Assembly: GCA_033961575.1 (NCBI GenBank)
Contig: CM066731.1
Location: 76,839,501 to 76,903,500, forward strand
Reading direction: 5' to 3'
Source of the DNA: Aselliscus stoliczkanus
Lineage: Eukaryota > Chordata > Mammalia > Chiroptera > Hipposideridae
DNA length: 64,000 nt
Shown here: piece after piece, positions 6,029 through 62,092 of the stretch
Position numbering within the stretch: position 1 is the first letter of the stretch
How the letters are laid out: each line of letters begins with the position of its first letter
Notes under the pieces: model-generated
Told to the model about the DNA's origin: nothing
Seen by the model: only the letters and a program-made list of their open reading frames with translations
The model's database searches: none
Translations under genes and position numbers: made by a program

Positions 6029-7350
6029 ACAAGGGTGTGAAGACATTCAGTTGAAGAAAGAATAATTTTTGCAACAAATTTTGCTGGGACAAGTGGTATC
6101 CACATTCAAAAGAATGAAGTTAGATTCCTACTTCACATCATATACAAAAAATAACTCCCAAAGTATCAAAAACCTGTAAGAGCTAAAACTATAAAACTTT
6201 TAGAATAAGACATATGTGTAAATATTTGTGACCTTGAATTAGAGAACTGTTTTTTTACATATGACTCCTAAAGCCCAAACATAAAAAGAAAAAGTAGATA
6301 AATTAGAATTCACCAATATTGAAAGCTTTTGTGCATCAAAAGACATTATCTACAAAATAAAAAAACAACCCACAGAAAGAGTAAAAATGGTTGCAATTTA
6401 TGTGTCTGCTAAGAGTGTAGAATCCAGAATATATTAAGAACTCTTACAACTCAACACAAAAGAAAAAAAAACCTAATTCTTTTAAAAAAGGCAAAGTGCC
6501 TGAATAAATAGACATTTCCCTGAAGAAGATATACAAATGGCCAACAAATACATGTAAACATGCCCATTGCCAATCATTAGGTAAATGCTAACCAAAATCA
6601 CAGTGAGATACCACTTAATACCCATCAAGATGTCTATAAACAATAAGTTAGATATAATAACAAGTGTAGACAATTAAGTACAGAAGTTGGAATTCTCATC
6701 TATTATTTGTTAGAAAGCAAAATGGTGCAACTCATTTTTTAAAACAATTTGACAATTCCTTAAAAAGTTAATTATAAAGTTATTACACAACACAGCAATT
6801 CTATTCCTCAGTATATATCAAAGCAAATTGCAAATGTTCACACAAAAATGTGCGTATAAATAAATGTTAATAGCAGCATTATTCATAATAGCCAAAAAAT
6901 TGAAATAACCTAAATGCCCATCTAAGGACTGGATAAATAAATTGTGGTATATCCATGAAATGGAACACTATTCAGCCGTTAAAAAAGAAATATTGATATG
7001 TGTAGATCTATATCTACAATATAGATCCATTTTCACCCATACTAATTGAAAGACACCACACACAAAAGGCCACATATGGTATAATTTCATTTATATGAAT
7101 TGTCCAGAATAGGCAGATCTAGTAGACTGAAATATGACTAGTAGTTGCCAGGGCCGGGAAAGGGGAAAATGAGGACTATTTACTGGTGAATATGGGGTTT
7201 CTCTTTTGGGATGATGAAAATATTCTGAGCATTAGATAGTGGTGATGTTCATACAACCTTTTTCAATATACTAAAAACCTAAGCATTGTGAAAATTGTAT
7301 ACTTTAAAAGATTAAATGTTATGGTTTGTGAATTATATATGAATAAAAAA
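6029..7350 (+). repeat. old L1, ORF2 3' end and 3' UTR (second part)
   Basis: This contains the ORF2 C-terminal landmarks 'gccaacaaatacatg', 'cagtgagataccactt', 'gcattattcataatagcc' and 'aatgcccatctaaggactggataaataaattgtggtatatccatg', then 3' UTR sequence ('gttgccagggccggg', 'gtgatgttcatacaacc', 'aaaattgtatactttaaaag', 'gtgaattatatatgaataaaa'). This is the 3' end of the element starting at about 4,800. It is non-coding. Confidence 0.87.
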
Positions 7351-9986: not shown

Positions 9987-10306
9987 AAATAGCATCTACA
10001 AAAATCCCCTACAGCGAAACATTATACTAAATAATCAAAACTTAGTACTTTTCTTCCTAGATAGGGAGCAAGGCAAAGATCAACTATCCACAGCATTATT
10101 CAACAATTTCTAGTCACTGAAATGAGAGAAAAAAGGAAGGAAGGAAGGAAGGAAGGAAGGAAGGAAGGAAGGAAGGAAGGAAGGAAGGAAGGAAGGAAGG
10201 AAGGAAAGAAGGAAGGAAGGAAGGAAGAAAGGAAGGAAGGAAGCAATTGGAAATAAATAAAACTGTCACTATTTGTTCATGGTATAATTTTCTATTAAAA
10301 ATCCAA
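9987..10306 (+). repeat. old L1 ORF2 (host L1, part 2) with GGAA tract
   Basis: This continues the host L1 ('agcatctacaaaaatcccctacag', 'agcaaggcaaagatcaactatcc', 'aatttctagtcactg'), then runs into a GGAA microsatellite (10,135-10,243) that replaces a short part of ORF2, and resumes as 'aactgtcactatttgttcatggtataattttctatt', the degraded YADD segment. Confidence 0.8.
10135..10243. repeat. (GGAA)n microsatellite
   Basis: About 27 tetranucleotide units of ggaa, pure for the first ~70 bp and interrupted by 'aaag' variants near the 3' end. It arose within L1 ORF2 sequence. GGAA arrays can bind ETS-family factors, but no function is implied here. Confidence 0.97.
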
Positions 10307-11297
10307 ATGACCGGTAAAATGGCAGAATAGACAGACGCTGTACTAACTACCTCCCTGGATCACATCAAAATTGCAAACAATTTATACAACATTCAACCCT
10401 GGAGGTCCCCGGAAGATTAGATGAACAGAAGAACTATATGAAGAACTTAGGGAGGAGGCCATGTCAAGTCTGGTAGGAGGGGCGGAGACGAGAGATGGCG
10501 AACCCTGTGAGGGAAGCCCCAGCTGTGGGGAGGCTTCCCCGGTTTGGGGAGAGACCCTCCAGCCACACACGAAGCTCACCAGCCCAGAGATCCTTTACTG
10601 GGAAGAGGAGTTCCAAGATAGCTGGCAGTAAATTAGTGAGGACTCTCTTTGCTCGGCTTGGTGAGGCTGGGAGCAGCTAGAGAATCAGTGGGGTCGGTGT
10701 GCGGGTTTGCTTGCCGGTGAGCGCTCAGCTGGTTACTGGTGGAGGCAGTAGCTGTGTGAGCCGAGCCAAGGAGCCTGCGGGGACGGACTGAGATGAGCTC
10801 CTTTGGTGCAGGAGCTGGAGGTTTTGCTACTATTGTTCCCCTGGTGTGGAGCTTGCTCACAAGTGGTAGACAGGAGGGTGCCATTTTGTCAGGGTTGGGA
10901 CCTTCCACAGAGGGTCAGGTCTGGGACCTCATTGGTCTGGTGGAATTGGGGCAGAAGTGCATGTGGCCTTGGATTCCCACCCTCTGCCCGGCTTATACTG
11001 TGTTGCCAGGGAAATGTTGGGCGGATGCCATCTGGCTCCAACAGGCTGCTCACTGAGACACGGGAGTGCACAAGCAGCCTCAGGTCCCCACTCTCCGCAC
11101 TGCACTTGCAGAGTTGCCAGGCTGGTGATTGGTTGTTAGGCTGCTCGGCCTAACCTGCAAGCGGCTGATTGGGACAGGCTGAAACTGGGAATTTTCCTGG
11201 GAATGTTGGGCTGTGAGCTGTGTGCCTACATGATCCAGCAAGGGCTATCCTGGTGATCTATCTAATACATCAATGCAATCCCAGAGAGACAGCCAAA
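10307..11297 (+). promoter_or_regulatory. L1 5' UTR of element A (internal promoter region)
   Basis: It begins with 'ccggtaaaatggcagaatagac', the same start as the 5' end of element B and related to the 5' end of D. It is more GC-rich than the surroundings and has scattered CpGs. L1 5' UTRs carry an internal Pol II promoter, so that role is inferred from position and family. Open frames here (for example 10,793-11,153) shift against B and D and are not genes. Confidence 0.78.
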
Positions 11298-12168
11298 ATA
11301 GGGAAACAAAGAAACAAGTCAGAAGTAAAAGATCAGAAGAAACCTCTAGAAATGGAACCAAAAGAAACAGAGGGATCCAACCTTTCAGAGACAGAGTTTA
11401 GAACACTGATGATAAGAATGTTTAACAAACTTAGTGAGGACATAAGGAAGGATAGAGAAATCATAAAAAGCAAACAGTTAGAACTAAAGAATACAATAAC
11501 TGAAATGAAGAACACACTCGAAGGAATCACCAGTATAGTAGATGAAGCAGAGGAGTGGATCAGCGATTTGGAGACAAAATAGCAGAAATCACCCAGTTGG
11601 CACAACAAAAAGACCAAAGAATATAAAAGAATGAAAATAGTCTAAGAGCCCCATGGGACAAGATGATGTATGAGCACCTTCGACTCATAGGAATACCAGT
11701 AGGAGAAGAGAAGAAGCAAGGGGTTGAGAATGTATTTGAAAAAACAATGACTGAAAACTTCCTTACCCTGGTGAAGGAAATCAACATACATGCCCAGGAA
11801 TTGCAGAGGGTTCCAAATAAGCTGAACCCAAACAGGTCCACACCAAGACACATCATAGGTAAAATGGCAAAGTTAAAGACAGAGACAGAATCCCAAAAGC
11901 AGCAAGAGAAACACAGCAGGTTACATACAAAGGAACTCCTGTTAGACTAACAGCTGACTTGTCTACAGAAAGTCTGCAGGCCAGAAGGGAGTGGCAGGAG
12001 ATACTCAAAGTGACACAAAATAAAGGCCTACAACCAACATTGCTCTACCCATCAAGGCTATCACTTAAAATTGAAGGAGAAATAAAGAGCTTCTCAGAAA
12101 AGAATAAGCATAAGGAGTTCATTACCACCAAGGCAGCATTGCAAGAAATGTTAAAAGGGCTTTTTTAA
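11298..12168 (+). pseudogene. L1 ORF1 pseudogene (element A)
   Basis: ORF1p is the trimeric RNA-binding protein of the L1 ribonucleoprotein. The start has decayed: the position equal to the ATG of B reads ATA (11,298-11,300). The first frame gives the N-terminus and the coiled coil (motifs LSETEFRTLMIRMFNKLSED, ELKNTITEMKNTLEGI) and stops at 11,582. After a frameshift the RRM region is read at 11,663-11,950 (motif PNRSTPRHIIGKM), and the C-terminal domain in another frame at 11,959-12,168 (motif ESLQARREWQEI), ending in KGLF-stop as in B. At least two frameshifts plus the lost start leave no intact protein. Confidence 0.88.
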
Positions 12169-12224
12169 GCAAAAGAAAGGGGTAAACAAGTTAACCCAGG
12201 AAAACCAGGAATACAAATAATAAA

Positions 12225-12815
12225 ATGGCAATACATATGCACCTATCAAGCATCATTTTAAATATGAATGGGCTAAATGCTCCCATCAAAAGACAGAGAG
12301 TGACTGAGTGGATAAGAAAGTAGATCACATGTATATGCTATTTATGGAGGGAATAAGATATTTCATGCAAATGGAAATGAGGAAAAATAAAGCTGGAGTA
12401 GCAGTACTTATTTTGGACAAAATAGACTTTAAAATGAAAACTACAATAAAAGACAAAGAAGGGCACTAAAACCCTAATAAACATCTATGTACCCAACATA
12501 GGAGCTCCTAATTATATAAAACAGAATTTGAGAGATATAAAGACACAGATCAACAGTAACATTATCATAGTAGAGGACTTCAACACCCCATTATCACCAA
12601 TGGACAGATCCTCTAGACAGAAAATCAACATGGAAAGAGTGGCCTTAAATGACACTTTAGACCAGCTGGATTTCGTTGATATTTTTAGAGCATTTCATCC
12701 TGAAACAACAGAATATACATTCTTCTCAAGTGCACATGGGACATTTTCCAAGATAGACCACATTAGGCCACAAAACAAGTCTCAGTAAATTTAAGAAGAT
12801 TGAAATCATATCAAG
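12225..12815 (+). pseudogene. L1 ORF2 remnant, endonuclease N-terminal part (element A)
   Basis: It starts ATG-GCA-ATA-CAT at 12,225, the usual L1 ORF2 opening, and reaches an early stop (tag) in 'ataagaaagtag'. Downstream, 12,528-12,788 reads endonuclease sequence with motifs VEDFNTPLSPMDRSSRQK and TEYTFFSSAHGTFSKIDH. A 2-nt deletion in the segment equal to 'cacatgttaggcc' of element C (here 'cacattaggcc') throws the frame into RPQNKSQ-stop. Element B has the same deletion and ending. At 12,815/12,816 the sequence jumps to 3' UTR. The rest of the endonuclease, the Z domain and the reverse transcriptase are missing. Confidence 0.86.
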
Positions 12816-13556
12816 GATATATAAAGGAAAAACTGATGGTTGCTGGCTGGGAGGGAGTGGGGATGAGGGAGAGGGGAAAGTTTTGGACAGCGTAGATGGG
12901 TGACTACAATGTTGCCGCAGGGATATGGGGGCAGTTCTGGGAATGTAATTGATAATGTTGTGAAGAGACTATTATATTAAGTGAAATAAGTCAGTTGGAG
13001 AAAGACAAATACCATACGATCTCACTTATATGTGGAATCTGAAAGACTGAATGAACGAGCAAAGTAAACAGACTCATAGATATAGAGGAAAAACTAAGGG
13101 TTGCTAGTTGGGAGGGGGGTGAAGATGAGGGAGAAGGGAAAGGGATTAGACAGCATAAATAGACAACTATAATATTGCCACAGGGATATGAAACACAGTT
13201 CGGGGAATATTATAATGTTATAGAAATTTTGTGGCATGTCAGATGGTCACATATCTTGGTAGGGAGACCACTTCATGGATGGAGTAGAGGCTTGATCACT
13301 GCACTGTATACCTGAAGCTGATGTTGTATAATATTATATGCCAACTGTAACTGAATATATAGATAGTCACGGGATGTGGAGTATACTGAAGAAGGGAGTC
13401 AAGGGAATTGTAATAGATATGTATGATATGGGCAGGGAGGAGTGGGGTGGCGAACTAGGGGAGGGTTTTGTCACTTTGAGGGGTAAAAAGTATGGCTGTT
13501 GCATTGAAACTAATTAAAAAACTGTTTATTTCACAATAAAAGATTTAAAGTTTAAA
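12816..13556 (+). repeat. duplicated 3' UTR module of element A
   Basis: The first partial 3' UTR (12,816-12,963, 'ataaaggaaaaactgatggttgctggctggg...gtaattgataatgttgtgaa') is followed by the ORF2 C-terminal tail ('agactattatattaagtgaaataagtcag...gtggaatctga') and then by the full 3' UTR, which repeats the same module from 'atagatatagaggaaaaactaagggttgctagttggg'. It ends with 'cacaataaaagatttaaag' and a short poly(A). The same order occurs in element B. Confidence 0.85.
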
Positions 13557-13566
13557 AAAAATCCAA

Positions 13567-16655: not shown

Positions 16656-17325
16656 CACACCTGGGAAAACAGCTGTATGTTTCGTTTCCCATAAGAGTCA
16701 TTGCTAAAAGCAGAAATGGCAGTGACTTTGTAAAAACTACCAATCACACATCACAACCACACTCATGTACAGCAAACCTGCAGTGCCAGGATCACACTAG
16801 GCATCAGGTGGCCGTCTTTGTTCCCACAAGACACAGAGGAATATTTGTACAGTAGAGGACAAACTGAAGAGAGCTTGGACTTTAGCCAAGACTGGCACTG
16901 GAGACACAAGAATCATCATACCCACAGGCCAATTTTAGATAAAACCAGAGCATTTCTGGGTTTGACATACAGGAGTCACACCCAAAAGGAAGTTGCTACA
17001 GGTGCAAGGGCCAAAGGGTCCAAGCCTCATCAGAGGGATCAACCCCCACACAGCAACCCATAAACTGCAGATACTGCTGATCCTCACAGCTGATCAGCCT
17101 GGAAATCAATCCCACCTACTGACAAGCCAAAAGTAATCAAAGCTAAACATCAACAGGTGAAGACACACAACACAAGTAACACCTCAGATATACACACACA
17201 AGAGAATAGGGAGATTGAGTAATTCAAATATAAAGGACACGCACCGTGTAAGTTTACCCAGAAAAGACTGAGAGACCTAGGGGATCTATTGGTTATATTG
17301 AAGCAAGCACAAAGAGTAAACCAGA

Positions 17326-18222
17326 ATGGGGAGACAAAGAAATACAACTCAAATAAAAGAACAGAAGAAACCTCCTAACTCAGTGGAACTAGAGGAAATA
17401 GAGGTTAACAACCTATCGGAGACAGAGTTCCAAACACTGATTATTAGAATGTTCAAGGAAATTAATGAAAATATAAAGAATGATAGAGAAATCATGAAAA
17501 GCAACCAGCTAGAACTTAAGAATGCAATTACTGAATCAAATAACAAATTCGATGGAATGACTAGCAGATTGGACGAAGCAGAAAATCGAATCAGTGACTT
17601 AGAAGACAAGATAGCAGAGATCACCCAAGCAGAACAACGAAAAGAAAAAAGAATGAAAAACATGGAAAATAGTTTAAGAGAGCTGGGGGACAACATCAAA
17701 TGCAATACCTTCCGGATCTTTGGAGTACCAGAAGGAGAAGAAAAGGAGCAAGGGATTGAGAAGATATTTGAAGTAATAATGTCTGAAAACTTCCCCAACC
17801 TGGCAAAGGACATTGAAATACAAGCCCAGGAAGTGCACAGAGTTCCAATCAAGATGATCCCAAACAGGCCCACACCAAGACACATTATAGTGAAAATGGC
17901 AAGGGTTAAGGACAAAGACAGAATCCTTAAAGCAGCAAGGGAAAGGCAGCAAGTTACTTACAAGGGTACCCCCATAAGATTATCAGCCTACTTTTCTACA
18001 GAAACTTTGCAGGCAAGAAGGGAGTGGCAGGAAGTTTTCTAAGTGATGAAAAATAAAGGCCTACAACTCAGTTTGCTGTATCCAGCAAGGCTATCATTTA
18101 AAATTGACGGAGAGATAAAGAGCTTCCCAGAAAAGAACAAGTTAAGGGAATTCATTACCACCAAGCCAGCTTTGAAGGAAATGTTAAAGGGCTTCTTTAA
18201 GCAGAAGAGAAAACCTAACTAA
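17326..18222 (+). pseudogene. L1 ORF1, single premature stop (element C)
   Basis: This would encode a 298-residue ORF1p, an RNA-binding chaperone that trimerises and coats L1 RNA. It starts at ATG 17,326 (MGRQRNTTQ). Residues ~40-115 are a heptad-rich coiled coil (motifs ENIKNDREIMKSNQLELKN, SRLDEAENRISDLEDKI). The RRM follows from ~residue 125 (TFRIFGVPEGEE; RPTPRHIIVKMARV near 181). The C-terminal domain begins near 215 (STETLQARREWQEV). One TAA at 18,040-18,042 interrupts it; in the other copies this position is AAA (Lys) in 'tcaaagtgatg/acac'. After the stop the same frame continues to 18,220-18,222 (ITTKPALKEMLKGFF). This is the least damaged gene of the window. Confidence 0.93.
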
Positions 18223-18248
18223 GGAAGACTAGGAACACAAATAACAAA

Positions 18249-21200
18249 ACGGCAATAAATACACACCTATCAATAATCACGTTAAATATAAATGGAGTAA
18301 ATACTCCAATCAAAAGACATAGGGTTGCTGAATGGATAAGAAAGCAAGACCCCGGCATATGCTGTATACAAGAGACACACCTCAGATCAAAAGACACATA
18401 CAGGGCCGGCCAAGTGGCGCGGTGGTTAAGCGCTGGCCTAGGAAGCCAGCGGCCCCTGTTCGGTCCCACATAAGAGGGCCAGTGATACTGCCCTCAAAAA
18501 AAAAAAAAAAAAAAAAGACACATACAGGGTGAAAGTAAAGGGATGGAGTAAAGTATTTCCTGCAAATGGAATGGAGAAAAAAGCTGGATTAGCGATACTT
18601 ATATCAGATAAGATGGACTTTAAATTGAAGAATATAATAAAGGATAAAGAAGGACACTTCATAATAATAAAGGGATCGATCCAACAAGAGGAAATAACCC
18701 TAGTAAACATCTATGCACCTAACAAAGGAGCTCCTAAATATATAAAACAGGTATTGTCAGACATAAAAACGGAGATCAACAGTAACACTATCATAGTAGG
18801 GGACTTCAACACCCCACTGTCACCAATAGACAGATCCTCCAGACAGAAAATCAATGCGGAAACAGTGACCTTAAATGACACATTAGACAACCTGGATTTA
18901 ACAGACATTTTCAGAGCATTTCACCCCAAAACTACAGAATATACATTCTTCTCAAGCGCACATGGAACATTTTCTAAGATAGACCACATGTTAGGCCACA
19001 AAAAAAGTGAATAAATTTAAGAAGATTGAAATAATTTCAAGTGTCTTCTCTGACCACAGTGCTATGAAACTAGAAATCAATTATAAGAACGCTGGAAAGC
19101 TGTCAAATAAATGGAGGCTAAATAACATGCTACTAAATAACAAGTGGGTCACAAATGAGATCAAGGAGCAAATAAAAAGGTACCTCGAGACAAACAGAAA
19201 TGAAAACACCACGACCCAAAATCTCTGGGATGCTGCAAAAGCAGTCCTAAGAGGGAAGTTTATAGCAGTGCAGGCCTACCTAAACAAGGGAGAAAAATCT
19301 CAAATCAGCAGGTTATCCTTACACCTAAGGAAACTGGAAAAAGAACAGCAAAAGAAGACCAAGGAGAGTACAAGAAAGGAGATAATAAAGATCAGAGCAG
19401 AAATAAATAATATAGAGAACAGAAAAACAATTCAAAAGATCAGTGAAACCAAGTGCTGGTTTTTTGAGAAGACAAACAAAATTGACAAACCTATAGCCAG
19501 GCTCATCAAAAAAAAAAAAAAAGAGGGAGGACTCAAATTAGTAAAATCAGGAATGAAAGAGGGGAAATGACTACGGACATCACAGAAATACAAAAAATTC
19601 TAAGAAATTACTATGAACAACTATATGCCAATAAATTTGACAATATGGAAGAAAAGGATAATTTTCTAGAAGCATACAACCTTCCAAAGCTAGCGCAAGA
19701 AGAAACAGAAAATCTAAATACCCTGATTACTACCAAGGAAATTGAATCAGTAATTGACAAGTTCCCAAAAAGCAAAAGCCCTGGACCAGATGGCTTCACA
19801 AGTGAATTTTATCGAACATTCAAAAAAGAACTATCACCTGTTCTTCTCTAACTATTCCAAAAAATCCAGAAGGAGGGAAGACTCCCAAACTCTTTTTATG
19901 AAGCCACTATCATCCTGATTCCAAAACCAGATAAAGACAGCACAAAAAAGTAAACTACAGGCCAATATCCCTAATGAATATAGATGGAAAAATTCTCAAT
20001 AAAATATTAGCAAACAGAATTCAGCAATATATTGAGAAGATCATACATCTTGATCAAGTGGGTGTCATCCCTAGTATGCAAGGCTGGTTCAACATCCGTA
20101 AATCAATTAATGTGATACACCACATCAACAAAATGAAGGATAAAGATCACATGGTCATTTCAATAGATGCAGAAAAAGCATTTGACAAAAATCCAACAGC
20201 CATTTATGTTAAAAACCCTTAGGAAAGTGGGAATACAGGTATCATATCTCAACATAATAAAAGCCAATATGATAAACCTACAGCTAACATCATACTCAAT
20301 GGGGATAAGCTAAAACCATTCCCCTTAAGATCAGGAACAAGACAAGACAAGGCTGTCCACTTTCTGCTCTTTTAATCAACATACTTTGGGAATTTCTAGC
20401 CACAGCAATCAGACAACAAAAAGAAATAAAAGGCATCCAAATTGGCAAGGAAGAAGTAAAATTGTCATTATATGCAGATGACATGATACTGTATATAGAG
20501 AACCACAAAGACTCCATCAAAAAACTACTGGAACTGATAGATGAATTCAGTAAAGTAGCAGGATATAAAATCAATGTTCAGAAATCAGTGGCATTTGCAT
20601 ATACCAATAATAAACTAACGGAAGGAGATATTAAGAAAAGTGTCCCATTTATAATTGCTTCAAGAACGATAAAATACCCAGGAATAAATTTAACCAAAGA
20701 AATGAAATATGTGTACTCAGAAAATTATAAGACACTGAAGAAAGAAATCAAAGAAGATACAAATAAATGGGAACACCTACCATGCTCATGGATAGGCTGA
20801 GTTAATATAGTTAAAATGTCCATTCTGCCTAAAGCAATATATAGATTCAATGCAATTCCTATCAAACTACCAAGGGCATTTTTCACAGAAATAGAAATTA
20901 TAATTCTAAAATATATATGGAACCATAAAAGACCCCAAATAGTCTCGGCAATCCTGAGAAATAAGAACAAAGTCGGGTGGATCACGCTACCAGACATCAA
21001 AACCTACTACAAGGCTACAGTAATCAAGACAGTATGGTATTGGCATAAAAACAGGCACATAGATCAGTGGAATAGAACAGAGAGCCCAGAAATAAATCCA
21101 GGCATTCACGGACAATTAATCCATGAAAAGGGAAGCAAGAATTTACATTGAAGTAAAGATAGTCTATTCAATAAATGGTGCTGGGAAAATTGGATTGACA

Positions 21201-22202
21201 CATGCAAAAAAATGAAACTGGACCACCTCCTTACGCCATATACAAGAACAAATTCAAAATGGATTAAGGACTTAAATGTAAGACCTGAAACCATAAAACT
21301 ACTAAAAGAAAATATAGGGAGTACATTTGCAGACATTACCCGGAGCAATATTTTTACTGATACATCCCTACGGGCAAGGGAAGTAAAAGGAAAAATGAAC
21401 ATATGAGATTATATCAGACTTAAAAGTTTTTTTAACAACAAAGGAAACCATCAATAAAACAAAAAGGCAGCCTACTGAATGGGAGAATATATTTGCCAAC
21501 GATATATCTGATAAGGGGTTAATATCTAAAATTTATAAAACACTCATGAAACTCAACACCAAAAAAACAAACAACCCAATTAAAAAATGGGCAGAAGATA
21601 CGGAGAGACATTTCTCTAAAGAGGACATACAGATGGCCAACAGACATATGAAAAAATGTTCAACCTCAGTGGTCATTAGGGAAATGCAAATAAAAACCAC
21701 AATGAGATATCACCTCACTGCAGTCAGAATGGCTATCATCAATAAATCAACAAACAACAAGTGCTGGTGGGGCTGTGGGGAAAAGGGGACCCTGCTGCAC
21801 TGTTGGTGGGATTGCAGATTGGTGCAGCCACTATGGAAGTCAGTATGGAGGTATCTCAAATAACTGGAAATGGAACTACCTCTTGACCCAGGAATTTCAC
21901 TCCTAGGTGTTTATCCTGAAAAACCCAAGATTCTTATCCAAAAAAATTTATGCACCCGTATGTTCATTGCAGCCCTATTTACAATAGCTAAGACTTGGAA
22001 ACAACCAAAATGCCCATCAGTAGGTGACTGGATTAAGAAACTGTGGTACATTTGTACAATGGAATATTACTCTGCTATAAAGAAGAATGAAATTGCACCA
22101 ATTGCAATGATATGGAGGGACCTAGAGACTATTATGTTAAGTGAAATAAGTCAGTCAGAGAAAGACAAATACCATATGATCTCACTCATATGTGGAATCT
22201 GA
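18249..22202 (+). pseudogene. L1 ORF2 pseudogene: endonuclease, RT, C-terminal (element C)
   Basis: ORF2p nicks target DNA with an APE-type endonuclease and reverse transcribes L1 RNA. The start codon has become ACG at 18,249. A SINE sits at 18,405-18,512. The endonuclease reads in 18,529-19,014 (motifs [33 protein letters not shown]) and continues in another frame from 19,007 ([12 protein letters not shown]). RT motifs include FPKSKSPGPDGFTSEFY (about 19,760) and [12 protein letters not shown] (about 20,150). The catalytic YADD is intact at 20,471-20,482. The C-terminal part has [25 protein letters not shown] and WNHKRPQI sequence near 20,820-20,940 and a Cys-rich [18 protein letters not shown] segment near 21,765. 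At least eight frameshifts or stops break it. Confidence 0.92.
18405..18512 (+). repeat. tRNA-derived SINE (abundant short family)
   Basis: Copy 4, with head 'gccggccaagtggcgcggtggttaag' and a ~22-nt A tail. The TSD at 18,389-18,404 and 18,513-18,528 is a perfect 16 bp. It splits the ORF2 endonuclease of element C, so it postdates C. Confidence 0.96.
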
Positions 22203-22700
22203 AAAACTGAATGAATAAGCAAGTAAATAGAAACTGTCTCATAGATATAGAGGAAAACAGTGTTGCTAGTTGGGAGGGCGGTGGGGATGAGACAGAAGGG
22301 GAAGGGATTAGAGAGCAAAAATAGGCAACTACAATATTGCCACAGGGATATGAAAGACAGTTCGGGGAATATAATTAATAATGTTGTAAATATTTTGTGG
22401 GGTGTCAGATGGTCATATGTCTTGTTAGGGAGACCATTTCATGGATGGAGTAGAGGCTTGATCACCGCACTGTACACCTGAAGCTGAGGTTGTATAATAT
22501 TGTATGCCAACTGTAGTTGAATATATAGATAGTCATGGGATGTGGATTATAATGTGGAAGGGAGTCAGAGGAAGTGTAATAGATATATATGATATAGGGG
22601 GGAGGAGTGGGGTGGCTAAATGAGGTAGGGTGGTTGTCACTTTGAGGGGTAAAAAGTATAACTATTGCACTGTGTTGTACACCTAAAATTTATTAAAAAA

Positions 22701-22743
<43 letters not shown>
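22203..22743 (+). repeat. L1 3' UTR and (AAAT)n tail of element C
   Basis: Carries the markers shared by the young L1s: 'catagatatagaggaaaac', 'gttgctagttgggaggg', 'attgccacagggatatgaaagacag', 'gtggggtgtcagatggtcat', 'gatatagggggg', 'gtcactttgaggggtaaaaag', 'ttgtacacctaaaatttatt'. The tail is (AAAT)n from 22,690 to 22,743 rather than pure A. Confidence 0.88.
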
Positions 22744-23807
22744 AAGAGTTGCTGCCAGAGGAGCTAAAATGCTGCTCTTGGAGGCCCTGGGGACCTGAAA
22801 CTCACTTTTCTCTTGGCCTTGACATCATTAGGGCAGCAGTGCAGTACTTACGGGCTGTGGGGCAACATCCTTACTATTTCCTGGATTGTCTGCCTTCTTG
22901 GCTGGAATAAACAGGACAGGAAGCACGTGATTCCTGGCCAAGTGCTCTCTAGTCAGTGCTTGGTTTGAATGAAGCTCCCCGAGAGGAAGACTATAGTGAG
23001 CAAGTTCATGCTTTATCAGCAATATCTACAATAGTCTAGAACGTGTTTGGAAATCATCAGATAGATGATGATGAAGATGATAAATGATAGATAGATAGGT
23101 AGATACATCGATAGATACATAGAGACAGATCTTTTGAATGAATCAACAAGACTTTTCATGCTGTATAAGCACATTTATATCTGGAATGTGTTCAAGCTTC
23201 TTATTGAGCCTTGTGTATTTGTATGGAATTAGGTGGGTCACAGACAGGATGTGGGTGGCAGGCAGGCACTTTCTGCCACATATTACGTTGTTGAGGGACT
23301 GGTGATTCTACCTACACTTAAAGCCTTTCTTCTTTAGTCATAGATATATGCTGACTATGAAAACAGGACAACTGTTGGCCTCAAATAATTTGGGTTCCAT
23401 GTCACATAACTGCCTGTTAGATGTTATTCTCTCTTAATTAAAGGTTTGTTCAAGTTAAGTTTTCCAGAATTGAGTTGCAATATTCCCGGAAGTCCTCAAA
23501 GGAACAAGCTACAGGCAAGTGCAGACACACAAGTTGATGCAACACTATGAAAACAAGTACCCTAGAAGGTCACACACACACAACTTTTGAACAGCACACT
23601 TCATCTTTTATGAAGTGCTTCTCCACTGTCAAATGAGCCCCTCAGTAACTGTGGGACACACTTTTCGTCATCCATGTAACATTCTTCAACCAGGGTACAT
23701 ATTGAATTATGTGCCAGAGAGTTATGATTGCTCTCTTTTCTATTGGATACTAAAAGCAGGATAGCAGGATTCTTTGACTTAGGGAACCAGTTGGTTTCTT
23801 TAATAAA
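22744..23807. other. no gene seen; short GATA tract
   Basis: About 1 kb of apparently single-copy DNA between two L1s, with an impure (GATA)n tract at about 23,083-23,125. ORFs such as 22,828-23,022 (minus) are short and have no supporting features. Confidence 0.5.
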
Positions 23808-23818
23808 TATTTAACAGA

Positions 23819-25295
23819 GGAAGGGTTCCAGTAAGATGGTGGAATAGAAGGAGGCTTTCCAAACTGCCTCCCAGGATCACATCAAAATTACAAGTAATTT
23901 ATACAACATTTAACCTCAGAAGTGCCCTGAACACTAGATGAATAGAACCTCTAAACAAAGGACCTAAAGAGGAGGCCATGTCAAGTCTGGTAGGAGGGGG
24001 TGCAGATGAGAGAGGTCGAGCCCTGTGAGGGATGCCTCAGTGGTGGGGAGGATTCTTCGGTTGGGGGAGAGACCCTCTGACCCCACACCAAGCTCACTAC
24101 TCCAGCATTGCTTTGCCAGGAAGAGGAGTTCTATGATAGTGGGCAATAGAAATTAGTGAGGAGTCTCTTTGCTCAGCTCAGTGAGGCTGGGGTGGCTAGA
24201 GAACCAATGGGGCTGGTGAACGGGTTCATGCACCAGTGAGCACTCACCTGGTTCGTGTTGGAGAGAGTAGCTGCGTGAGCCGGGCCCACGAGCCTGTGGG
24301 GAAGGACTCAACTGAGCAGAAGCTGGAGGTTTTGGGACTATTGTTCCCCTGGTGTGCAGCTTGCACCCGAGTGGTGTACAGGAGGGCGCCTTTTTTTTCA
24401 GGGTTGGGCCCTCCCACAGAGGTTCAGATCTGGGATCCCATTGGTCTGGTGAACTTGGCGCAGGAGTGCATGCATGTGTGCGTGTGCATGCGGCCTTGGA
24501 TTTCCACCCTCTGCCCTGCTTGTGCTCTGTTGGCAGGGAAATGTCTGGTGGGTGCCCTCTGGCTCCATCAGGTGGCTCACTGAGACACAGGAGTGCCCTA
24601 GCCACCTTAGGTCACCACTCTGCACTGTTTGTGCAGAGTTGCAAGGCTGGGGATTGGCTGTTGGGCTGCTTAGCATGATCTGTGGGCAGTTGATTAGGAC
24701 AGGCTGAGACAGGGAGTTTTTCTGAGAGTGTTGGGCAGGGAGAGGTGCACTTGTGTGATCTGGTCGAGCCTTTCCTGGTGAGTTTATGTGGACTGATTGC
24801 TGGTGCAGAGTGCAGGCTGCTCTGACTTGGTGGGGACCATTGACCCAAGTGGGTCCTTGGGGGCCTGCCCCACCCACCTAGACCTGTGTTTCCAGAGGCA
24901 CCCTGAGACCCTGGTGCCTGTCCCTCATCACCACAGGCCACAGAGGGTTTTTTTTTTTTTGCAGTAGCGGACAACCTGCAACAACCTGTGAAGATTTTTT
25001 TTTTTTATTTTGCACAGTTCCAGAGCACACAGCAGCTAATTTTGGAAAGTTTACTGCAAGCATGAGAGGGAGGCAGACACATAACACGTTAAGCTCTTCC
25101 CCCCATTAGCTGGTGCTGAGTTGCTCAAAGACTCTCTATTGCTGAGCAACTGGTCTGCAGATTAAAGAGGAAGGAGAGCCCTCCCACCTCCTTATTTTTT
25201 TTAAATTTTTTTTTCTTTTTTCTTCTTTCTAGGTGATCTATCTACTACATAGAAGCATTCACAGAATGACAGCCAGATTGAAAATACAATGAAAC
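23819..25295 (+). promoter_or_regulatory. L1 5' UTR of element D (internal promoter region)
   Basis: It starts 'ggaagggttccagtaagatggtgg', related to the first bases of A and B. It is about 1.48 kb, longer than the ~1.0 kb of A because of an extra segment at about 24,770-25,250 with two poly(T) runs (24,950-24,960 and 24,994-25,006). It is GC-rich up to ~24,930. Internal Pol II promoter activity is inferred from family knowledge. Open frames here, on both strands up to 159 codons, are composition effects. Confidence 0.75.
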
Positions 25296-26150
25296 ATGTC
25301 CCAAGTAAAAGATCAGAAGAAAATTCTAGAAATGGAACTAAATGAAACAGAGGTATACAAACTTTCAGAGACAGAGTTTAAAACACTGATGATAAGAATG
25401 TTTAAGGAACTTAGCGAGGACGTAAAGAAGGATAGGGAAACCAAAAAAACAACCAGTTAGAAATAAAGAATACGATAACTGAAATGAAGAGCACACTCAA
25501 AGGAATCACCAGTAGAATAGATGAAGCAAAGGAGTGGATCAGCGAATTAGAAAACAAAATAGCAGAAATCACTCAGCTGGAACAACAAAAAGAAAAAAGA
25601 ATAAAAAAAATGAATGAAAATAGTTTAAGAGACCTCTGGGACACATGAAACGCAACAACTCTTGAATCATATGAATACCAGAAGGATAAGAGAAGCAGCA
25701 AGGGATTGAGAATGTATTTAAAGAAATAATGACTGAAAACATCCCTCCCCCAGTGAAGGAAATCAACATACAAGCCCAGGATGCGCAGAGAGCTCCAAAC
25801 AGGCTGAATCCAAACAGGCCCACACAACAGCACATCATAATTAAAATGGCCGAGCTAAAAGACAAAGACAGAATCCTAAAAGCAGCAAGAGATAGACAGC
25901 AGATCACATACTAAAGACCTCCTATAAGACTAACAGATGACTTTTCTTCAGAAACTCTGCAGGCCAGAAGGGAGTGGCAGGAGATATTCAAAGTGACACA
26001 AAATAAAGGTCTACAACCAAGATTGCTCTACCCAGCACGGCTATCACTTAAACTTGATGAAGAGATAAAGAGCTTCTCAAAAAAGAATAAGCTTAAGGAA
26101 TTCATTACCACCAATCAGCATTGCAGGAAATATTAAAAGGACTTCTTTAA
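25296..26150 (+). pseudogene. L1 ORF1 pseudogene (element D)
   Basis: It starts at ATG 25,296, equal to the second methionine of the element B ORF1 (MSQVKDQKK), and ends KGLL-stop at 26,148-26,150. A frameshift near 25,445 ends the first frame at tag within 'aacaaccagttag'. Further damage includes a stop in 'gacacatgaaacgc' near 25,645. The RRM/C-terminal region reads in 25,729-25,914 (motifs APNRLNPNRPTQQHIIIKM, DRILKAARDRQQ), which stops at a TAA at 25,912-25,914, and then resumes (SSETLQARREWQEIF). It is closer to A and B than to C. Confidence 0.88.
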
Positions 26151-26206
26151 GCAAAAGAAAGGGTAAAACAAGCTAACCTAGGAAGACAAGAAATACAAAT
26201 AAAAAA

Positions 26207-30078
<3,872 letters not shown>

Positions 30079-30595
30079 AAAACTGAATGAATGAGCAAAG
30101 GAAACAGAAACAGTCTCATAGATATAGAGGAAACACAAGATTGCTAGGTTGGAGTGGGGTAGGGATGAGGGAGAAGGGGAATTGATTAGACAGCATAAAT
30201 AGCTAACTACAGTGTTGTCACAGGGATATGAAAGACAGTTCATGGAATATAACAATGTTGTAAAAATTTTGTGGGGTGTCATATGGTCACATGTCTTGTT
30301 AGGGAGACCACATCTTGGATGGAGTAGAGACTTGATCACTGCACTGTATACCTGAAATTGTTGTTGTATAATATTGTATGCCAACTCTAATTGAATATAT
30401 AGATAGTCCCGGGATGTGGATTAGATGGTGGAAGGGAGTCAAAGGAATTGTAATAGATATGTATGATATGGGGGGTTGGAGTGGGGTGGAGAATTGAGGG
30501 AGGGGGGTTGTCACTTTGAGTGGTAAAAAGTATAACTATTGTACTGTGTTGTACACCTGAAGCTAATTAAAAAAATAATTTAAAAAATAAATAAG
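30079..30595 (+). repeat. L1 3' UTR of element D
   Basis: Same order of markers as in element C ('catagatatagaggaaac', 'ggagtggggtagggatgaggg', 'gtggggtgtcatatggtcac', 'gatatggggggttgg', 'gtcactttgagtggtaaaaag', 'ttgtacacctgaagc'). It ends in an A-rich tail just before the right TSD. Confidence 0.88.
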
Positions 30596-30606
30596 TATTT
30601 AACAGA

Positions 30607-35307: not shown

Positions 35308-36137
35308 ATTTAAAAAAATATATGCAGTATATCTAAACAGATATTTCTCCAGAGAAGATACACGAATGGCCAGGAAGCACATGAAAAGATGTTTGAAATT
35401 ATTAGTCAGCAGGGAAATACAAATCAAAACCACAATAAGATACTACATCACACTCACTGGGATGAGGAGAATCAAAAAGTCAGATAATAACAAGTGTTGG
35501 TGAGGATGTGGAGAAATCAAAGCCCTTAATCACTGTTGGTGGGAATGTAAAATGATGCAGCCACTTTTGCAAGTAGTGGGCAGTTCTCAAACAATAAAAC
35601 AGAGTTAACCATATGACCCAACAATTTCACTCCTAGAGCACTCTATTCCTAAAAGAAGCGAAATACGTCTAGAAGCAAACTTTTACACAAGTGATTATGG
35701 CAGTATTATGAATGATATCCAAAAGTTGGAAACAACCAAAATGTCTGCTAACTGTGGTTTAGCAAAGTTAGTTAATAGATTAAAAAATGTGGCATATTCA
35801 CATGAAAGAATATTATTTGATCATAAAAAGAAATGAAATACTAATGCATGCTACACATTAATGAACCTTGAAAACATTATATGAAGTGAAATAAATCAGT
35901 CACAGAAGGCCACATAATACATGATTCCATTTGTATGAAATGTCCAGAATAGGCAAATGTATAGATAAAGGAAGTATATTACTGGTTATCTAGTGCTAAA
36001 ATGGGGTGAGGTAAGGGAGGTGACAGCTAAAGTGCATGGGATTTCTTTTTGAGGTGATGAAAAAGCTTGAAATTGAACTGTGGTGATAGTTAAACTTCTT
36101 TGTGAAGATACTAAAAAAACATCGAACTGCATACTTT
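35308..36137 (+). repeat. old L1 ORF2 3' end and 3' UTR (part 2)
   Basis: Rejoins the L1 after the SINE: 'acagatatttctccagagaagatac', 'gaaatacaaatcaaaaccacaataagatacta', 'aataacaagtgttggtgaggatgtggag', 'ggtgggaatgtaaaatgatgcagcc', 'aactgtggtttagc', then 3' UTR 'gaagtgaaataaatcagtcacagaagg' and 'aaattgaactgtggtgatagttaaac'. It is interrupted at 36,138 by element B; the last ~50 bp are at 39,492-39,545. Confidence 0.88.
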
Positions 36138-36858
36138 CTTTTACTTTTTATTAGTTTCAGGTGTACAACACAATGCAACAGTTATACTCTTTACCCCCCA
36201 AAGTGACAATCCCCCTCCCCCAGTATGCCACCAAACCCCCCCCATATCATATATATGTATTACAATTCCTTTGACTCCCTTCCACAGTATAATCCACATC
36301 CCGTGACTATCTATACATTCAGTTACAGTTGGCATACAATATTATACAACATCAGCTTCAGGTGTACAGTGCAGTGATCAAGCTCCTACTCCATCCATGA
36401 AGTGGTCTCCCTAACAAGACATGTGACTATCTGACATGCCACAAAATTTTTACAACATTGTTATATTCCCTGAACTGTGTTTCATATCCCTGTGGCAACA
36501 TTGTAGTTGTCTATTTATGCTGTCTAATCCTTTCCCCTTCCCCCTCATCCCCAGCCCCCTCTCAACTAGCAACCCTCAGTTTTTCCTCTATATCTATGAG
36601 TCTGTTTACTTTGCTCGTTCATTCAGTCTTTCAGATTCCACATATAAGTGAGATCACATGGTACTTTGTCTTTCTCCGACTGACTTATTTCACTTAACAT
36701 AATAGTCTCTTCACAACATTATCAATTACATTTCCAGAACTGCCCCCATATCCCTGCAGCAACAGTGTAGTCACTCACCTAGGCTGTCCAAAACTTCCCC
36801 CACTCCCTCATCCCCACTCCATCCCAACCAGCAACCATCAGTTGTTCCTTTATATCTG
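36138..36858 (-). repeat. duplicated 3' UTR module of element B
   Basis: On the minus strand: a partial 3' UTR copy (36,858 down to about 36,712), the last ~100 nt of ORF2 (ending with the 'gtggaatctga' stop region near 36,630), and a complete 3' UTR with the markers 'catagatatagaggaaaaactgagggttgctagttg', 'attgccac'-type repeat and 'gtcactttggggggtaaagag', ending in 'ttgtgttgtacacctgaaac' and a short A-rich tail. The order equals that of element A. Confidence 0.85.
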
Positions 36859-36885
36859 CTTGATATGACTTGAATCTTCTTAAAT

Positions 36886-37445
36886 TTACTGAGACTTGTT
36901 TTGTGGCCTAAAGTGGTTTATCTTGGAAAATGTCCCATGTGTACTTGAGAAGAATGTATATTCTGTTTTTTCAGGGTGAATTGCTCTAAAAATATCAACG
37001 AAGTCCAGCTGGTCTAAAGTGTCATTTAAGGCCCCTCTTTCTGTGTTGATTTTCTGTCTAAAGTGTCTGTACATTGGTGACAATGGGGTGTTGAAGTCCC
37101 CTACTATGATAGTGTTACTGTCGATGTCTGATTTTATGTCTGTCAAATCTGTTATATGTAATTAGGAGTTCCTATGTTGGGTGCATAGATGTTTACTAGA
37201 GTTATAGTGCCCTTCTTTGTCTTTTCTTGTAGTCATTTTAAAGTCTATTTGGTCGAAAATAAGTACTGCTACTCCAGCTTTATTTTTTCTCATTTCCATT
37301 TGCATGAAATATCTTATTCCATCTGTAAATAGCATATACATGTGTCCTATTTTCTAATCCCCTCAGCCACTCTCTGTCTTTTGATGGGAGCATTTAGCCC
37401 ATTCACATTTAAAATGATTACTGATAGGTGCATATGTATTGCTAT
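36886..37445 (-). pseudogene. L1 ORF2 remnant, endonuclease part (element B)
   Basis: The opening is ATA at 37,445 where element A has ATG, followed by the usual GCA-ATA-CAT-ATG. The frame 37,146-36,886 reads TDIKSDIDSNTIIVGDF, NTPLSPMYRHFRQKIN, and TEYTFFSSTHGTFSKINH, and ends in RPQNKSQ-stop exactly as in A, because of the same 2-nt deletion ('cactttaggcc' for 'cacatgttaggcc'). Everything of ORF2 beyond is missing except the last ~100 nt. Confidence 0.86.
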
Positions 37446-37501
37446 TTTGTTATTTGTATCCCTGGTCTTCCTGGATTACCTTGTTTCCCCCTTTCTTTTG
37501 T

Positions 37502-38362
37502 TTAAAAAAGCCCTTTTAACATTTCTTGCAATGCTGCCTTGGTGGTAATGAACTCCTTATGCTTATTCTTTTCTGAGAAGCTCTTTATTTCTCCTTCAAT
37601 ATTAAGTGATAGCCTTGATGGGTAGAGCAATGTTGGTTGTAGGCCTTTATTTTGTGTCACTTTGAGTATCTCCTGCCACTCCCTTCTGGCCTGCAGACTT
37701 TCTGTAGACAAGTCAGCTGTTAGTCTAACAGGAGTTCCTTTGTATGTAACCTGCTGTGTTTCTCTTGCTGCTTTTGGGATTCCGTCTCTGTCTTTAACCT
37801 TTGCCATTTTAACTATGATGTGTCTTGGTGTGGGCCTGCTTGGGTTCAGCTTGTTTGGAACCCTTTGCACTTACTGGGCATGCATGTTGATTTCCTTCAC
37901 CAGGGTAGGGAAGTTTTCAGTCATTATTTTTTCAAATACATTCTTGACCCCTTGCTTCTCTTCTCCTTCTGGTATTCATGGTTGTTATGCCTCATCTTGT
38001 TCCATAGGGCTCTTAAACTATTTTCATTGTTTTTTATTCTTTGGTCTTTTTGTTGTGCCAACTGGGTGACTTCTTCTATTTTTTCTTCCAAATCGCTGAT
38101 TCCGCTCCTCTGTTTCATCTACTCTACTGGTGATTCCTTCGAGTGTGTTCTTCATTTCAGTTATTGTATTCTTTAGTTCTAACTGTTTGCTTTTTATGAT
38201 TTCTCTATCCTTCCTTATGTCCTCACTAAGTTTGTTAAACATTCTTATCATCAGTGTTCTAAACTCTGTCTCTGAAAGGTTGGATCCCTCTGTTTCATTT
38301 GGTTTCATTTCTAGAGGTTTCTTCTGATCTTTTACTTGTGACATGTTTCTTTGTTTCCCCAT
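37502..38362 (-). pseudogene. L1 ORF1 pseudogene (element B)
   Basis: The start is ATG at 38,362 (MGKQRNMSQVKDQKKPLEM) and the stop is at 37,504-37,502 (MLKGLF-stop). The total length is 861 nt, exactly 287 codons including the stop, so its indels nearly cancel. The N-terminus and coiled coil (LSETEFRTLMIRMFNKLSED; TEMKNTLEGITSRVDE) are read first. A frameshift near 38,110 moves to RSGISDLEEKIEEVTQLAQQ, and another before 37,870 to the RRM/C-terminal domain (MQRVPNKLNPSRPTPRHIIVKM; STESLQARREWQEILK). Better preserved than ORF1 of A, but not translatable as one protein. Confidence 0.9.
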
Positions 38363-39475
38363 TCTGGCTGTCGCTCTGGGATTGCTTTGCTGTATTAGAT
38401 AGATCACCAGGAGAGCCCTGCCTGGATCACCCAGGCACACAACTCATGGTCCAACACTCCCAGGACAACTCCCAGTTTCAGCCTGTCCCAATCAGCTGCT
38501 CGCAGATCAGGCGGAGCAGCCTGATAACCAATCAGCAGCCTGGCAACTCTGCAAGCATATTGCGGGGAGCAAGGCCCCAAGGCGGCCTGCGCATTCCCGC
38601 ATCTCAGTGAGCAGCCTGCTGGAGCTGGAGCACGCCCACCAGTGGTTCCCCTGACAATGCAGCACAAGCCGCAGAGGGTGGGGATCCGAGGCAGCTTGCG
38701 CACGCCCGGGTCTCAGTGAGCCCCCTGTTGGAACTGGAGGGCACCCGCCCAGCATTTCCCTAGGCAACGCAGTACAAGCCGGACAGAGGGTGGGGATCCA
38801 AGGCCGCATGCGCGCGCACGCATACACACACACAAGCACCTCTGCGGTAACTCCACCAGACCAATGAGGTCCCGAACCTGATCCACTGTGGGAAGTCCCA
38901 ACCCTGAGAAAATTGTGCCCTCCTACACCACTCACGTGCAGGCTCGTCACCAGGGGAACAGCAGTCCAAAAACCTCCAGTCTCTGCACCAAAAGTGCCCA
39001 GTCAGTCCGTCCCCGCAGGTTCCTGGCCCAGCTCACACAGCCACTCCATTCACCAAGAACCAGGTAAGTGCTCACTGGTGAGCAAGCCTGTGCACTGGCC
39101 CCACTGATTCTCTAGCCACTCTTAGCCTCACCGAGCTGAGCAAAGGAAGTCCTCACTAATATACTGCCAGCTATCTTGGAAGTCCTCTTACCAGCAAAGG
39201 AACTCTGGGCTGGTGAGCTTTGTGTGCGGCCGGAGGGTCTCTCCCCCAAGCAGAGAAGCGTCCCCACAGCTGGGGCTTCCCTCACGGGGTTTGCCCTGTC
39301 TTGTCTCCACCTGTTCTACCAGACCCGATGTGGCCTCCTCTTTAAGTTCTTCATTTAGTGGTTCTGTTCATCTAATTGTTCAGGGACCTCCAGGGTTGAA
39401 TGGTGTATAATTTGTTAGTAATTTTGGTGTGATCCTGAGAGGAAGTTAGCACAAAGTCTGTCTATTCTGCCATTT
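38363..39475 (-). promoter_or_regulatory. L1 5' UTR of element B with a tandem duplication
   Basis: GC- and CpG-rich, especially 38,560-38,830. The 5' terminus reads 'aaaatggcagaatagacag' on the minus strand, as in A. A segment of ~110 bp is present twice in tandem: 38,579-38,687 and 38,688-38,799, each ending in 'gggtggggatcc' on the plus strand and sharing 'tctcagtgagc' and 'acaagccg'. Element A has one copy. Internal Pol II promoter function is inferred from the family. Confidence 0.78.
38579..38799. repeat. ~110-bp tandem duplication in L1 5' UTR
   Basis: Unit 1 is 38,579-38,687 and unit 2 is 38,688-38,799. They are clearly alignable but differ at several positions (for example 'cctgctggagctggag' versus 'ccctgttggaactggag'), so the duplication is not very recent, or was inherited from the source element. 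Confidence 0.85.
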
Positions 39476-39491
39476 TCGAACTGCATACTTT

Positions 39492-39545
39492 CAATGGGTG
39501 AATTATACAGCATGTGAATTACATCTTGATAAAGCTGTTAAAAAT
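39492..39545 (+). repeat. last bases of the old L1 3' UTR
   Basis: 'caatgggtgaattatacagcatgtgaattacatcttgataaagctgtta' is the expected 3' terminus of an old L1, continuing from 36,137 across element B. Confidence 0.88.
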
Positions 39546-55111: not shown

Positions 55112-55238
55112 GCATACTATAAATTTGACTAACAATCTATAACATCATCATAATATAGTAAGCTGCTTTTTTTTGTGGAATTATATAGTGAACACATCTT
55201 TTCTCAGGCTCATACAAAGAACTGAAAGGGGTCTTTTA

Positions 55239-55450
55239 TTTTCTTATTTTTTTTGATTTTTCTATTTAGCTTATAGAGATATATATATTTTAATATTTTA
55301 GTTTGAGGTGTACAAAACAATGCAATAATTATACTTTTCACCCCTCACAAAGTGACAACTCCCCTCCCCCAACCCCCCTCCCCCCAGTATCTATTACATA
55401 TCTATTACAGTTCCATTGACTCCATTCCCGAAACTATACTCCACATCTGG

Positions 55451-55518
<68 letters not shown>

Positions 55519-55831
55519 GTTGACATACACTATTATTCAATGTCAGCTTCAGTTGTACAGTGCAGTGATCAAGCTTCTACACCATCCATGAAGTGGTCTC
55601 CCTAACAAGGCATGTGTCCATCTGACACCCTAAAAAGTATTTACAACCTTATGAATTATATTCCCCAAACTGTCTTTCATATACCTGTGGCAATATTGTA
55701 GTCACCTATTTATGCTGTATAATCCCTTCCCTTTCTCCCTCATCCCAACCCCCCTCCCAACTAGCAAACATCAGTTTTTCCGCTATATCTATGAGTCTGT
55801 TTCTGTTTACTTTGCTCATTCATTCAGTTTT
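55239..55831 (-). repeat. L1 3' UTR of element E with (AT)n expansion
   Basis: Same markers as in C on the minus strand. The usual short 'gaatatatagatag' segment has expanded into a pure (AT)n of about 58 bp at 55,455-55,511. The A-rich 3' end is impure (55,239-55,270). Confidence 0.85.
55455..55511. repeat. (AT)n microsatellite in an L1 3' UTR
   Basis: About 28 AT units inside the 3' UTR of element E. Confidence 0.96.
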
Positions 55832-60608: not shown

Positions 60609-60638
60609 TTTGTTATTTGTGTTTCTGGTTTTCATTAA

Positions 60639-61551: not shown

Positions 61552-62092
61552 TCTGGCTGACTCTTTGTGCTTGCTTTGATGTATTAGGTAAGCCTTCTAA
61601 GTCTCTCAGTCTTTGCTGGGTGGACTTGTGTGATATGTGTCCCTTGTATTTGAATTGCTCAGTCTCCCTATTCTCCTGTGCATGCGTTCCAGTGGTGTCC
61701 CTTTTGTTGTGTGTCTTCTCCTGTTGAAGTTAAGCTTTGATTGCTCTTGGCTTGTCAGTAGGTGGGATTGACTCCCAGACTATGAGGATTGGCTATGTCT
61801 ACAGTGTATGAGCTGCCATGTGAATGTTGACCCCTCAGATGGGGCTTGGCCCCTATGGGCTCTTGTGCCTATAGAGATTTCCCTTTGGGTGTGACTCTTG
61901 TAGGTTAAACCTGGTAATCCTCTGGTTTGGTCTAGAATTGGCCTCTGGGTATGATGAATCTTATGCCTCTTTGGCTGACACTCTATATCTTGCTGAAAGT
62001 CTGTGTGACTTCAAATCCTCATTGTGCTGTGTGGGCTGTGATTCCAGCTCCTACCCAGTAACCATCCTCAATTCTTGGGTGACAGTAACATC
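61552..62092 (-). promoter_or_regulatory. L1 5' UTR of element E (internal promoter region)
   Basis: About 540 bp, matching segments of the element C 5' UTR: on the minus strand 'gattcatcatacccagaggccaattctag', 'agagtcacacccaaagggaa', 'cagactgagcaattcaaatacaaggg'-type order. Likely internal promoter by family, with no direct proof here. Confidence 0.72.

Follow-up and report, generated by a model that had tools for sequence, protein, structure and literature searches.

The window examined here, a stretch of 64,000 nucleotides (nt) from the bat Aselliscus stoliczkanus (contig CM066731.1, positions 76,839,501 to 76,903,500), contains two related elements, A and B, which belong to a large family of mosaic half-LINE-1s. 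These are derivatives of the long interspersed element 1 (LINE-1, L1) that keep the 5' untranslated region (5'UTR) and the first open reading frame (ORF1) and only the two ends of ORF2. A half-LINE-1 has lost its own copying enzyme and would have to borrow one from complete L1s. Bao and Jurka reportedly described elements of this kind, the HAL1s, in 2010, as L1 derivatives that have only ORF1, end in poly(A) and are flanked by target-site duplications, and that presumably depend in trans on the reverse transcriptase and endonuclease of L1. We propose, with a probability of roughly 0.9, that the family in A. stoliczkanus is HAL1-like and of stepwise origin: an L1 would have been truncated, its ORF2 remnant would have lost two segments, a new tail would have been gained, and the product would have been spread by the L1 machinery in trans. 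A HAL1-like identity had been suggested by a first-pass annotation of the window, and it agrees with what is seen, for the copies are derived from L1 and dispersed, keep the 5'UTR and ORF1, have no reverse transcriptase, and show clear target-site duplications in 10 of 21 cases.

Mosaic structure of elements A and B

The junctions were placed by comparison of the window with itself and by alignment to its three longer L1s, designated C, D and E (Table 1). Elements A and B have the same order of blocks: an L1 5'UTR, ORF1, the start of ORF2, a piece of 3'UTR, the end of ORF2, and a full 3'UTR. When A is aligned with L1 C, the ORF2 match stops at C 19,041, continues in the 3'UTR from C 22,245, and then returns to C 22,124; the corresponding breakpoints for B are C 19,041, 22,243 and 22,124. 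L1s D and E align with C without interruption across both junction sites. This realignment shows the junction coordinates of the first-pass annotation to have been correct to a few bases. Its ORF2 end piece of about 100 nt measures 79 nt, and its ORF2 start piece, which is indeed present, also contains two internal deletions.

In the 5'UTR of A, the sole matching L1 of the window is L1 D, at 77.6% over 931 columns. A tandem duplication in this region (around 10,966-11,121 in A and about 38,671-38,705 in B) is present in B and 12 other sampled copies and missing from A and seven others, as judged from overlapping matches; it is read as variable promoter units.

Dispersal of the junctions in the genome

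The source assembly (2.187 Gb, 146 contigs) was searched with a pattern for each junction, with up to 2 mismatches tolerated and the reversed patterns as control. The junction 1 pattern occurs at 6,760 places (3,321 + 3,439) and the junction 2 pattern at 6,287 (3,090 + 3,197), while the reversed patterns of both junctions gave 0 + 0 places each in the whole genome. A chance origin of the junctions is therefore excluded. With 101-nt probes, all 40 scored matches to junction 1 were 94-100% identical (the best 40 of 256 first-look candidates), as were all 40 to junction 2 at 96-100% (the best 40 of 564). Element A alone is common to both probe lists, which therefore represent 79 distinct places. 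The many dispersed copies anticipated by the first-pass annotation are thus found, with probes and pattern counts together giving thousands of places.

Of the 20 exact junction 2 places listed for the first 95.03 Mb of one contig (C1), 11 are accompanied by an exact junction 1 at a distance of 145-147 nt on the same strand; the remaining nine may represent copies with an altered junction 1 or shortened copies. Between 97 and 124 Mb of the same contig, which is at least 206.9 Mb long, lie 51 of the 93 listed exact junction 2 places, a regional clustering within about 27 Mb.

For detailed analysis, 22 copies were assembled, comprising A, B, and 20 of the 39 other top junction 1 places, which were fetched with their flanks. 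One of these, L013, is incomplete on its 5' side, leaving 21 copies for the analyses of ORF1 and of target-site duplications. Junction 1 is present in all 22 copies, and junction 2 lies at the identical place in 20 of them; in L024 it is accompanied by a small local gap, and L012 and L018 possess junction 1 and one ordinary 3'UTR, with no junction 2. Conversely, of eight places found with the junction 2 probe, among them A itself (L029), seven also have junction 1, and the eighth, L031, begins within the 3'UTR piece. The pair of junctions noted for A and B is accordingly a property of the wider family, and the opposite outcome, that other copies would have different junctions, did not materialize.

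Separate insertion of the copies

Target-site duplications were scored against a control of 420 mismatched flank pairs, with percentiles of the control as thresholds. Ten of the 21 copies have a duplication above the 99th percentile, and three further copies, including A, score 10, which equals the 95th percentile. In L028 the duplication is 12 nt long with one mismatch. For the remaining copies of the 21, no duplication stands out from the control. The earlier view that each of A and B has a target-site duplication of its own thus holds for B, where it is clear and 16 nt long, and less well for A, where it amounts to only 10 nt. A thymine precedes the duplication in 11 of 14 insertion sites, and the duplication starts with AAA in 9 of 14 (raw counts, with no control), a pattern that would be as expected for the L1 endonuclease.

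In comparisons of same-side flanks, no match was found in 430 of 441 pairs, including A versus B. Together with the thousands of places in the genome, this disposes of the possibility that only two copies exist, with alignable flanks. The 11 matching pairs are 72-88% identical, which we take to reflect shared repeats, not segmental duplication. L016 and L021 have similar flanks on either side (82-86%), and those at the junctions are L1-like; we take the pair to have been inserted independently, at one motif, in two copies of L1. That motif is a possible insertion hot spot inside L1.

Elements A and B lie in the same window, about 23 kb apart and inverted, and they share two nearly identical stretches of ORF1, as might be expected if they were the halves of a local duplication. 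We regard such a duplication as extremely improbable. No match exists between the flanks of the two elements, B is bordered by a 16-nt target-site duplication of its own, and most of the two 5'UTRs are only about 80% identical, so that the first-pass annotation was right to dismiss a segmental duplication. The two ORF1 stretches comprise positions 11,364-11,535, with no difference over 172 nt, and 11,888-12,168, with one difference over 281 nt and seven states found in at most one other sampled copy; A and B are clearly more different outside them, and their longest identical run was reached in none of 20,000 permutations. Gene conversion within this inverted pair is nevertheless not claimed: the unlinked pair L010 and L023 has a longer run (88 versus 75).

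Intermediates and the order of events

The mosaic copies are missing two stretches of the ORF2 remnant, one of 47 nt and one of about 35 nt, that L1 has, and the distribution of these segments orders the history of the family. Both segments are kept in L039a, L012 and L041, which have junction 1 only; the 35-nt segment alone is lost from L018, L040 and L042; and both are lost from L038. All seven of these copies have a single tail. By contrast, all 21 mosaic copies scored (19 together with L030 and L032) are without both segments. Over these 28 copies, seven simple-tailed and 21 mosaic, the four characters of junction 1, loss of the 35-nt segment, loss of the 47-nt segment, and junction 2 nest without conflict. 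In a tree of ORF1 and the ORF2 remnant, L012 and then L018 branch outside the mosaic copies.

The simple form is not confined to a few places. Of the 40 scored matches to a simple-tail probe (the best 40 of 519 candidates), 37 span at least 96 of 101 nt, and the six places that were fetched, one of which is L018 again, all have junction 1 and a simple tail. L039a is an additional, more diverged copy within L039, with an L1-like 3'UTR, and is probably nearer to the founding event. The L039 locus itself, of 3.1 kb, contains two half-LINE-1 copies of differing age placed end to end.

Since junction 2 is missing from the simple-tailed copies, which do have junction 1, the junctions did not arise together in a single event, and on these sequence comparisons the truncation preceded the mosaic tail. 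The proposal of a mosaic tail more complex than a simple truncation is thereby borne out, with the tail graft as the later step. The reverse order, in which the mosaic form came first and later deletions between the paired 3'UTR repeats produced the simple tails, is mechanically feasible, as the 3'UTR pieces are direct repeats (77% identical in A), and L038, with its simple tail and both segments lost, is compatible with either order. However, the 47-nt segment is kept in six of the seven simple-tailed copies and gone from all 21 mosaic ones, the simple-tailed copies have a distinct 3'UTR continuation, and L012 and L018 fall outside the mosaic copies in the tree. A mosaic-first order is consequently improbable, and we reject it on the ORF2 segments that simple-tailed copies have kept.

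Coding state of ORF1 and the ORF2 remnant

ORF1 is open across its whole length in four of the 21 copies (L009, L010, L020 and L023), with the frame extending a few codons beyond the usual stop in L009 and L023. It is broken in both A and B, whose start codons read ATA and ATG, respectively. No premature ORF1 stop is common to more than three of the 21 copies. A Pfam scan of two of the open ORF1 proteins found PF02994 and PF17490 in both and PF17489 in one, all of them RNA-binding domains of L1 ORF1. One open ORF1 gave 1,818 protein matches; of the 120 that were listed, the one highest in identity (71%, covering 70% of the query) comes from Rhinolophus ferrumequinum, and the top matches by score are from Cnephaeus nilssonii, at 47-54%.

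The ORF2 remnant, on the other hand, is closed in all three frames, with stops common to up to 20-21 of the 21 copies. No ORF2 encoding endonuclease and reverse transcriptase is left, as all 22 copies are cut at junction 1.

Origin of the family

The observations suggest the following sequence of events. An L1 related to L1 D would have lost the region from early ORF2 through the start of the 3'UTR, giving rise to junction 1, for which an internal deletion or a template jump is the best reading. The resulting simple half-LINE-1 would have multiplied, and its useless ORF2 remnant would have shed first 35 nt and then 47 nt. One copy would then have gained a new tail at junction 2, consisting of the last 79 nt of an L1 ORF2 and a full L1 3'UTR. 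For this step we favor a template switch from an L1 RNA to a half-LINE-1 RNA, in which the reverse transcriptase would have started on the L1 RNA, copied the 3'UTR and 79 nt of ORF2, and jumped to the half-LINE-1 RNA. The tail-grafted chimera would finally have multiplied to yield the mosaic copies.

The two tails of the mosaic elements differ in their resemblance to present L1s. Identity to the tails of C, D and E is 74-79% for the first 3'UTR piece of A and 84-87% for its second tail, except for the last 138 nt of the latter, which are 75% identical to E. The first piece of B is 74-75% identical to the L1 tails of the window. In the subgroup of L020, L022 and L023, the tail distance to the rest of the family is 0.114, compared with 0.09 within the rest, which is slightly above the prediction from ORF1; as a sign that mosaic copies exchanged their tails more than once, this is suggestive only.

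Junction 2 might also have arisen by DNA recombination, that is, through gene conversion or an unequal exchange between one genomic copy and an L1. The product would look identical, and the break shows an overlap of about one base. Template switching to another RNA, on the other hand, requires a single step and has been proposed to generate L1 chimeras (PMC13174262). We consider DNA recombination possible but unlikely.

Recurrent splicing would provide another explanation, in which the same ORF2 donor was joined each time to the same 3'UTR acceptor and every RNA was inserted once, without any lineage. Insertions of spliced L1s are on record for human (PMC5860796), and L1 C does have a GT near one side of junction 1 and an AG near the other. 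Yet the nearest GT/AG joining misses junction 1 by about four extra bases, as measured on the L1s of the window, from which the true parent may differ. Furthermore, junction 2 runs backwards, from the 3'UTR to the end of ORF2, which is impossible by cis-splicing, and the copies have lineage-specific deletions and a diverged 3'UTR piece in common. Splicing is thus ruled out for junction 2 by its reverse order and is unlikely for junction 1, and as an account of the whole family it is highly improbable.

Spread in trans by the L1 ORF2 protein (ORF2p) would require active donors. Among the best 150 of 23,411 reverse transcriptase candidates scored, five matches lie within open frames of 1,189-1,282 amino acids, which we take to be about the full length of L1 ORF2, and the frames to be those of L1s. 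From these frames, L1 donors of reverse transcriptase probably exist today.

Several points weigh against the stepwise origin in trans as set out above. The copies read in detail were picked by their similarity to A or, for the simple form, to L018, and the tree of ORF1 and the ORF2 remnant was read without support values. In 11 of the 21 copies, the target-site duplication does not exceed the 99th percentile of the control. L039a is without 9 nt beside junction 1, so that its junction may stem from a somewhat different event. While the second tail of B is 86-87% identical to C and D, it is only 76% identical to E, and the contrast between old and new tails therefore hinges on the L1 that is compared. 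Mobilization in trans by L1 ORF2p, moreover, leaves nothing visible in the sequence, and we infer it. Finally, a codon-position test for selection on ORF1 was not significant (p = 0.11 and 0.75), and further tests of this kind, with few sites, gave no significant signal; retention of ORF1 function is therefore not proved, and selection on ORF1 during the spread of the family is likely but unproved.

The terminal branches of the 21 copies measure 2.4-6.4%, with a mean of 4.2%. At a mammalian neutral rate near 2.2 per site per billion years, the sampled insertions would be of the order of 20 million years old. The family had at first been described as young, a description that these old insertions show to be too strong, and no sign of current activity was found in the 21 copies, which were chosen by similarity to A.

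Taken a step further, the family may represent a parasite without reverse transcriptase that lived long, shed ORF2 piecewise, and renewed its worn 3' end by switching onto a contemporary L1 tail, with tail capture, rather than loss of reverse transcriptase, bringing its success. We offer this only tentatively, at rather less than even odds. If it were true, each step could be tested through the surviving intermediates. The puzzle that the family addresses is why ORF1 is kept when reverse transcriptase is borrowed, and what role the 3' end plays in the recruitment of ORF2p. One genome here holds a natural deletion series, from the complete L1 through the simple half-LINE-1 and two shortened stages to the tail-grafted form, and comparison of these stages could reveal whether there is a role for ORF1 in cis and one for a fresh L1 3'UTR.

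Features of the window

The positions of the features in the window are collected in Table 1. Related short inserts, which are 84% alike and resemble short interspersed elements, break the ORF2 of L1 C (18,404-18,512) and of L1 D (26,470-26,586). Rfam and tRNA scans of the window gave no matches.

Table 1. Coordinates of the half-LINE-1 elements, their parts, and the longer L1s in the window.
Feature	Position	Strand	Basis
Element A, mosaic half-LINE-1	10,307-13,556	+	self-comparison, alignment to window L1s
A left target-site duplication (AAAAATCCAA), 10 nt, weak	10,297-10,306	+	score 10 = 95th percentile of mismatched flanks
A 5'UTR	10,307-11,297	+	
A ORF1, disabled	11,298-12,168	+	no long open frame
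A ORF2 start piece (endonuclease region), with shared stops and two shared internal deletions	12,225-12,815	+	
A junction 1, ORF2 to 3'UTR	12,815/12,816	+	
A older half-LINE-1 3'UTR piece, 148 nt	12,816-12,963	+	
A junction 2, 3'UTR back to ORF2 end	12,963/12,964	+	
A final 79 nt of ORF2, including stop	12,964-13,042	+	
A second, full L1-type 3'UTR and A-rich end	13,043-13,556	+	
A right target-site duplication, 10 nt	13,557-13,566	+	
L1 C, longer window L1	about 16,901-22,747	+	
L1 D, contiguous at both junction sites, window L1 closest to the half-LINE-1 family	about 23,828-30,597	+	
B target-site duplication, 3' copy, 16 nt	36,123-36,138	-	
Element B, second mosaic half-LINE-1, both junctions as in A	36,139-39,476	-	alignment to window L1s
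B junction 2	36,710-36,711	-	alignment to L1 C
B junction 1	36,857-36,859	-	alignment to L1 C
B target-site duplication, 5' copy, 16 nt	39,477-39,492	-	
L1 E, longer window L1	about 55,232-61,969	-	

Comparison with known elements

The plan of an ORF1-only L1 derivative is common to HAL1 and to the family of A and B, but the latter has a grafted second L1 3' end and surviving structural intermediates. In guinea pig, HAL1 is reported to have kept ORF1 coding for long (PMC3627910). Recent families tabulated for one mammal are likewise known from other hosts, namely HAL1-1E_Cpo, HAL1-1G_Cpo, HAL1-1H_Cpo and HAL1-3D_Cpo of guinea pig and HAL1-1C_Cja of marmoset, Repbase entries that are compared here by their listing alone (PMC3183009). 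For human, nearly 2,100 HAL1 copies are quoted in the literature, against 6,287-6,760 junction places for the present family, although the methods of counting differ. A literature search, with supplements outside its scope, found no description of a bat HAL1, which says nothing on the content of Repbase or Dfam.

Two further classes of L1-derived sequence can be compared. As in the present family, SpIREs (PMC5860796) are dispersed L1-derived copies with common internal junctions; SpIREs, however, are near dead ends, whereas copies of the A and B family descend from copies, and their junctions do not fit the nearest splice sites. In L1 chimeras such as U6/L1 (PMC13174262), too, an L1 3' end is preceded by a segment that comes from a different RNA, but in the A and B family this 5' segment is also derived from L1, and a large family descends from the chimera. 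Judged against published descriptions, HAL1s are thus already known, and what is unusual in A. stoliczkanus is the grafted tail together with the surviving series of intermediates.

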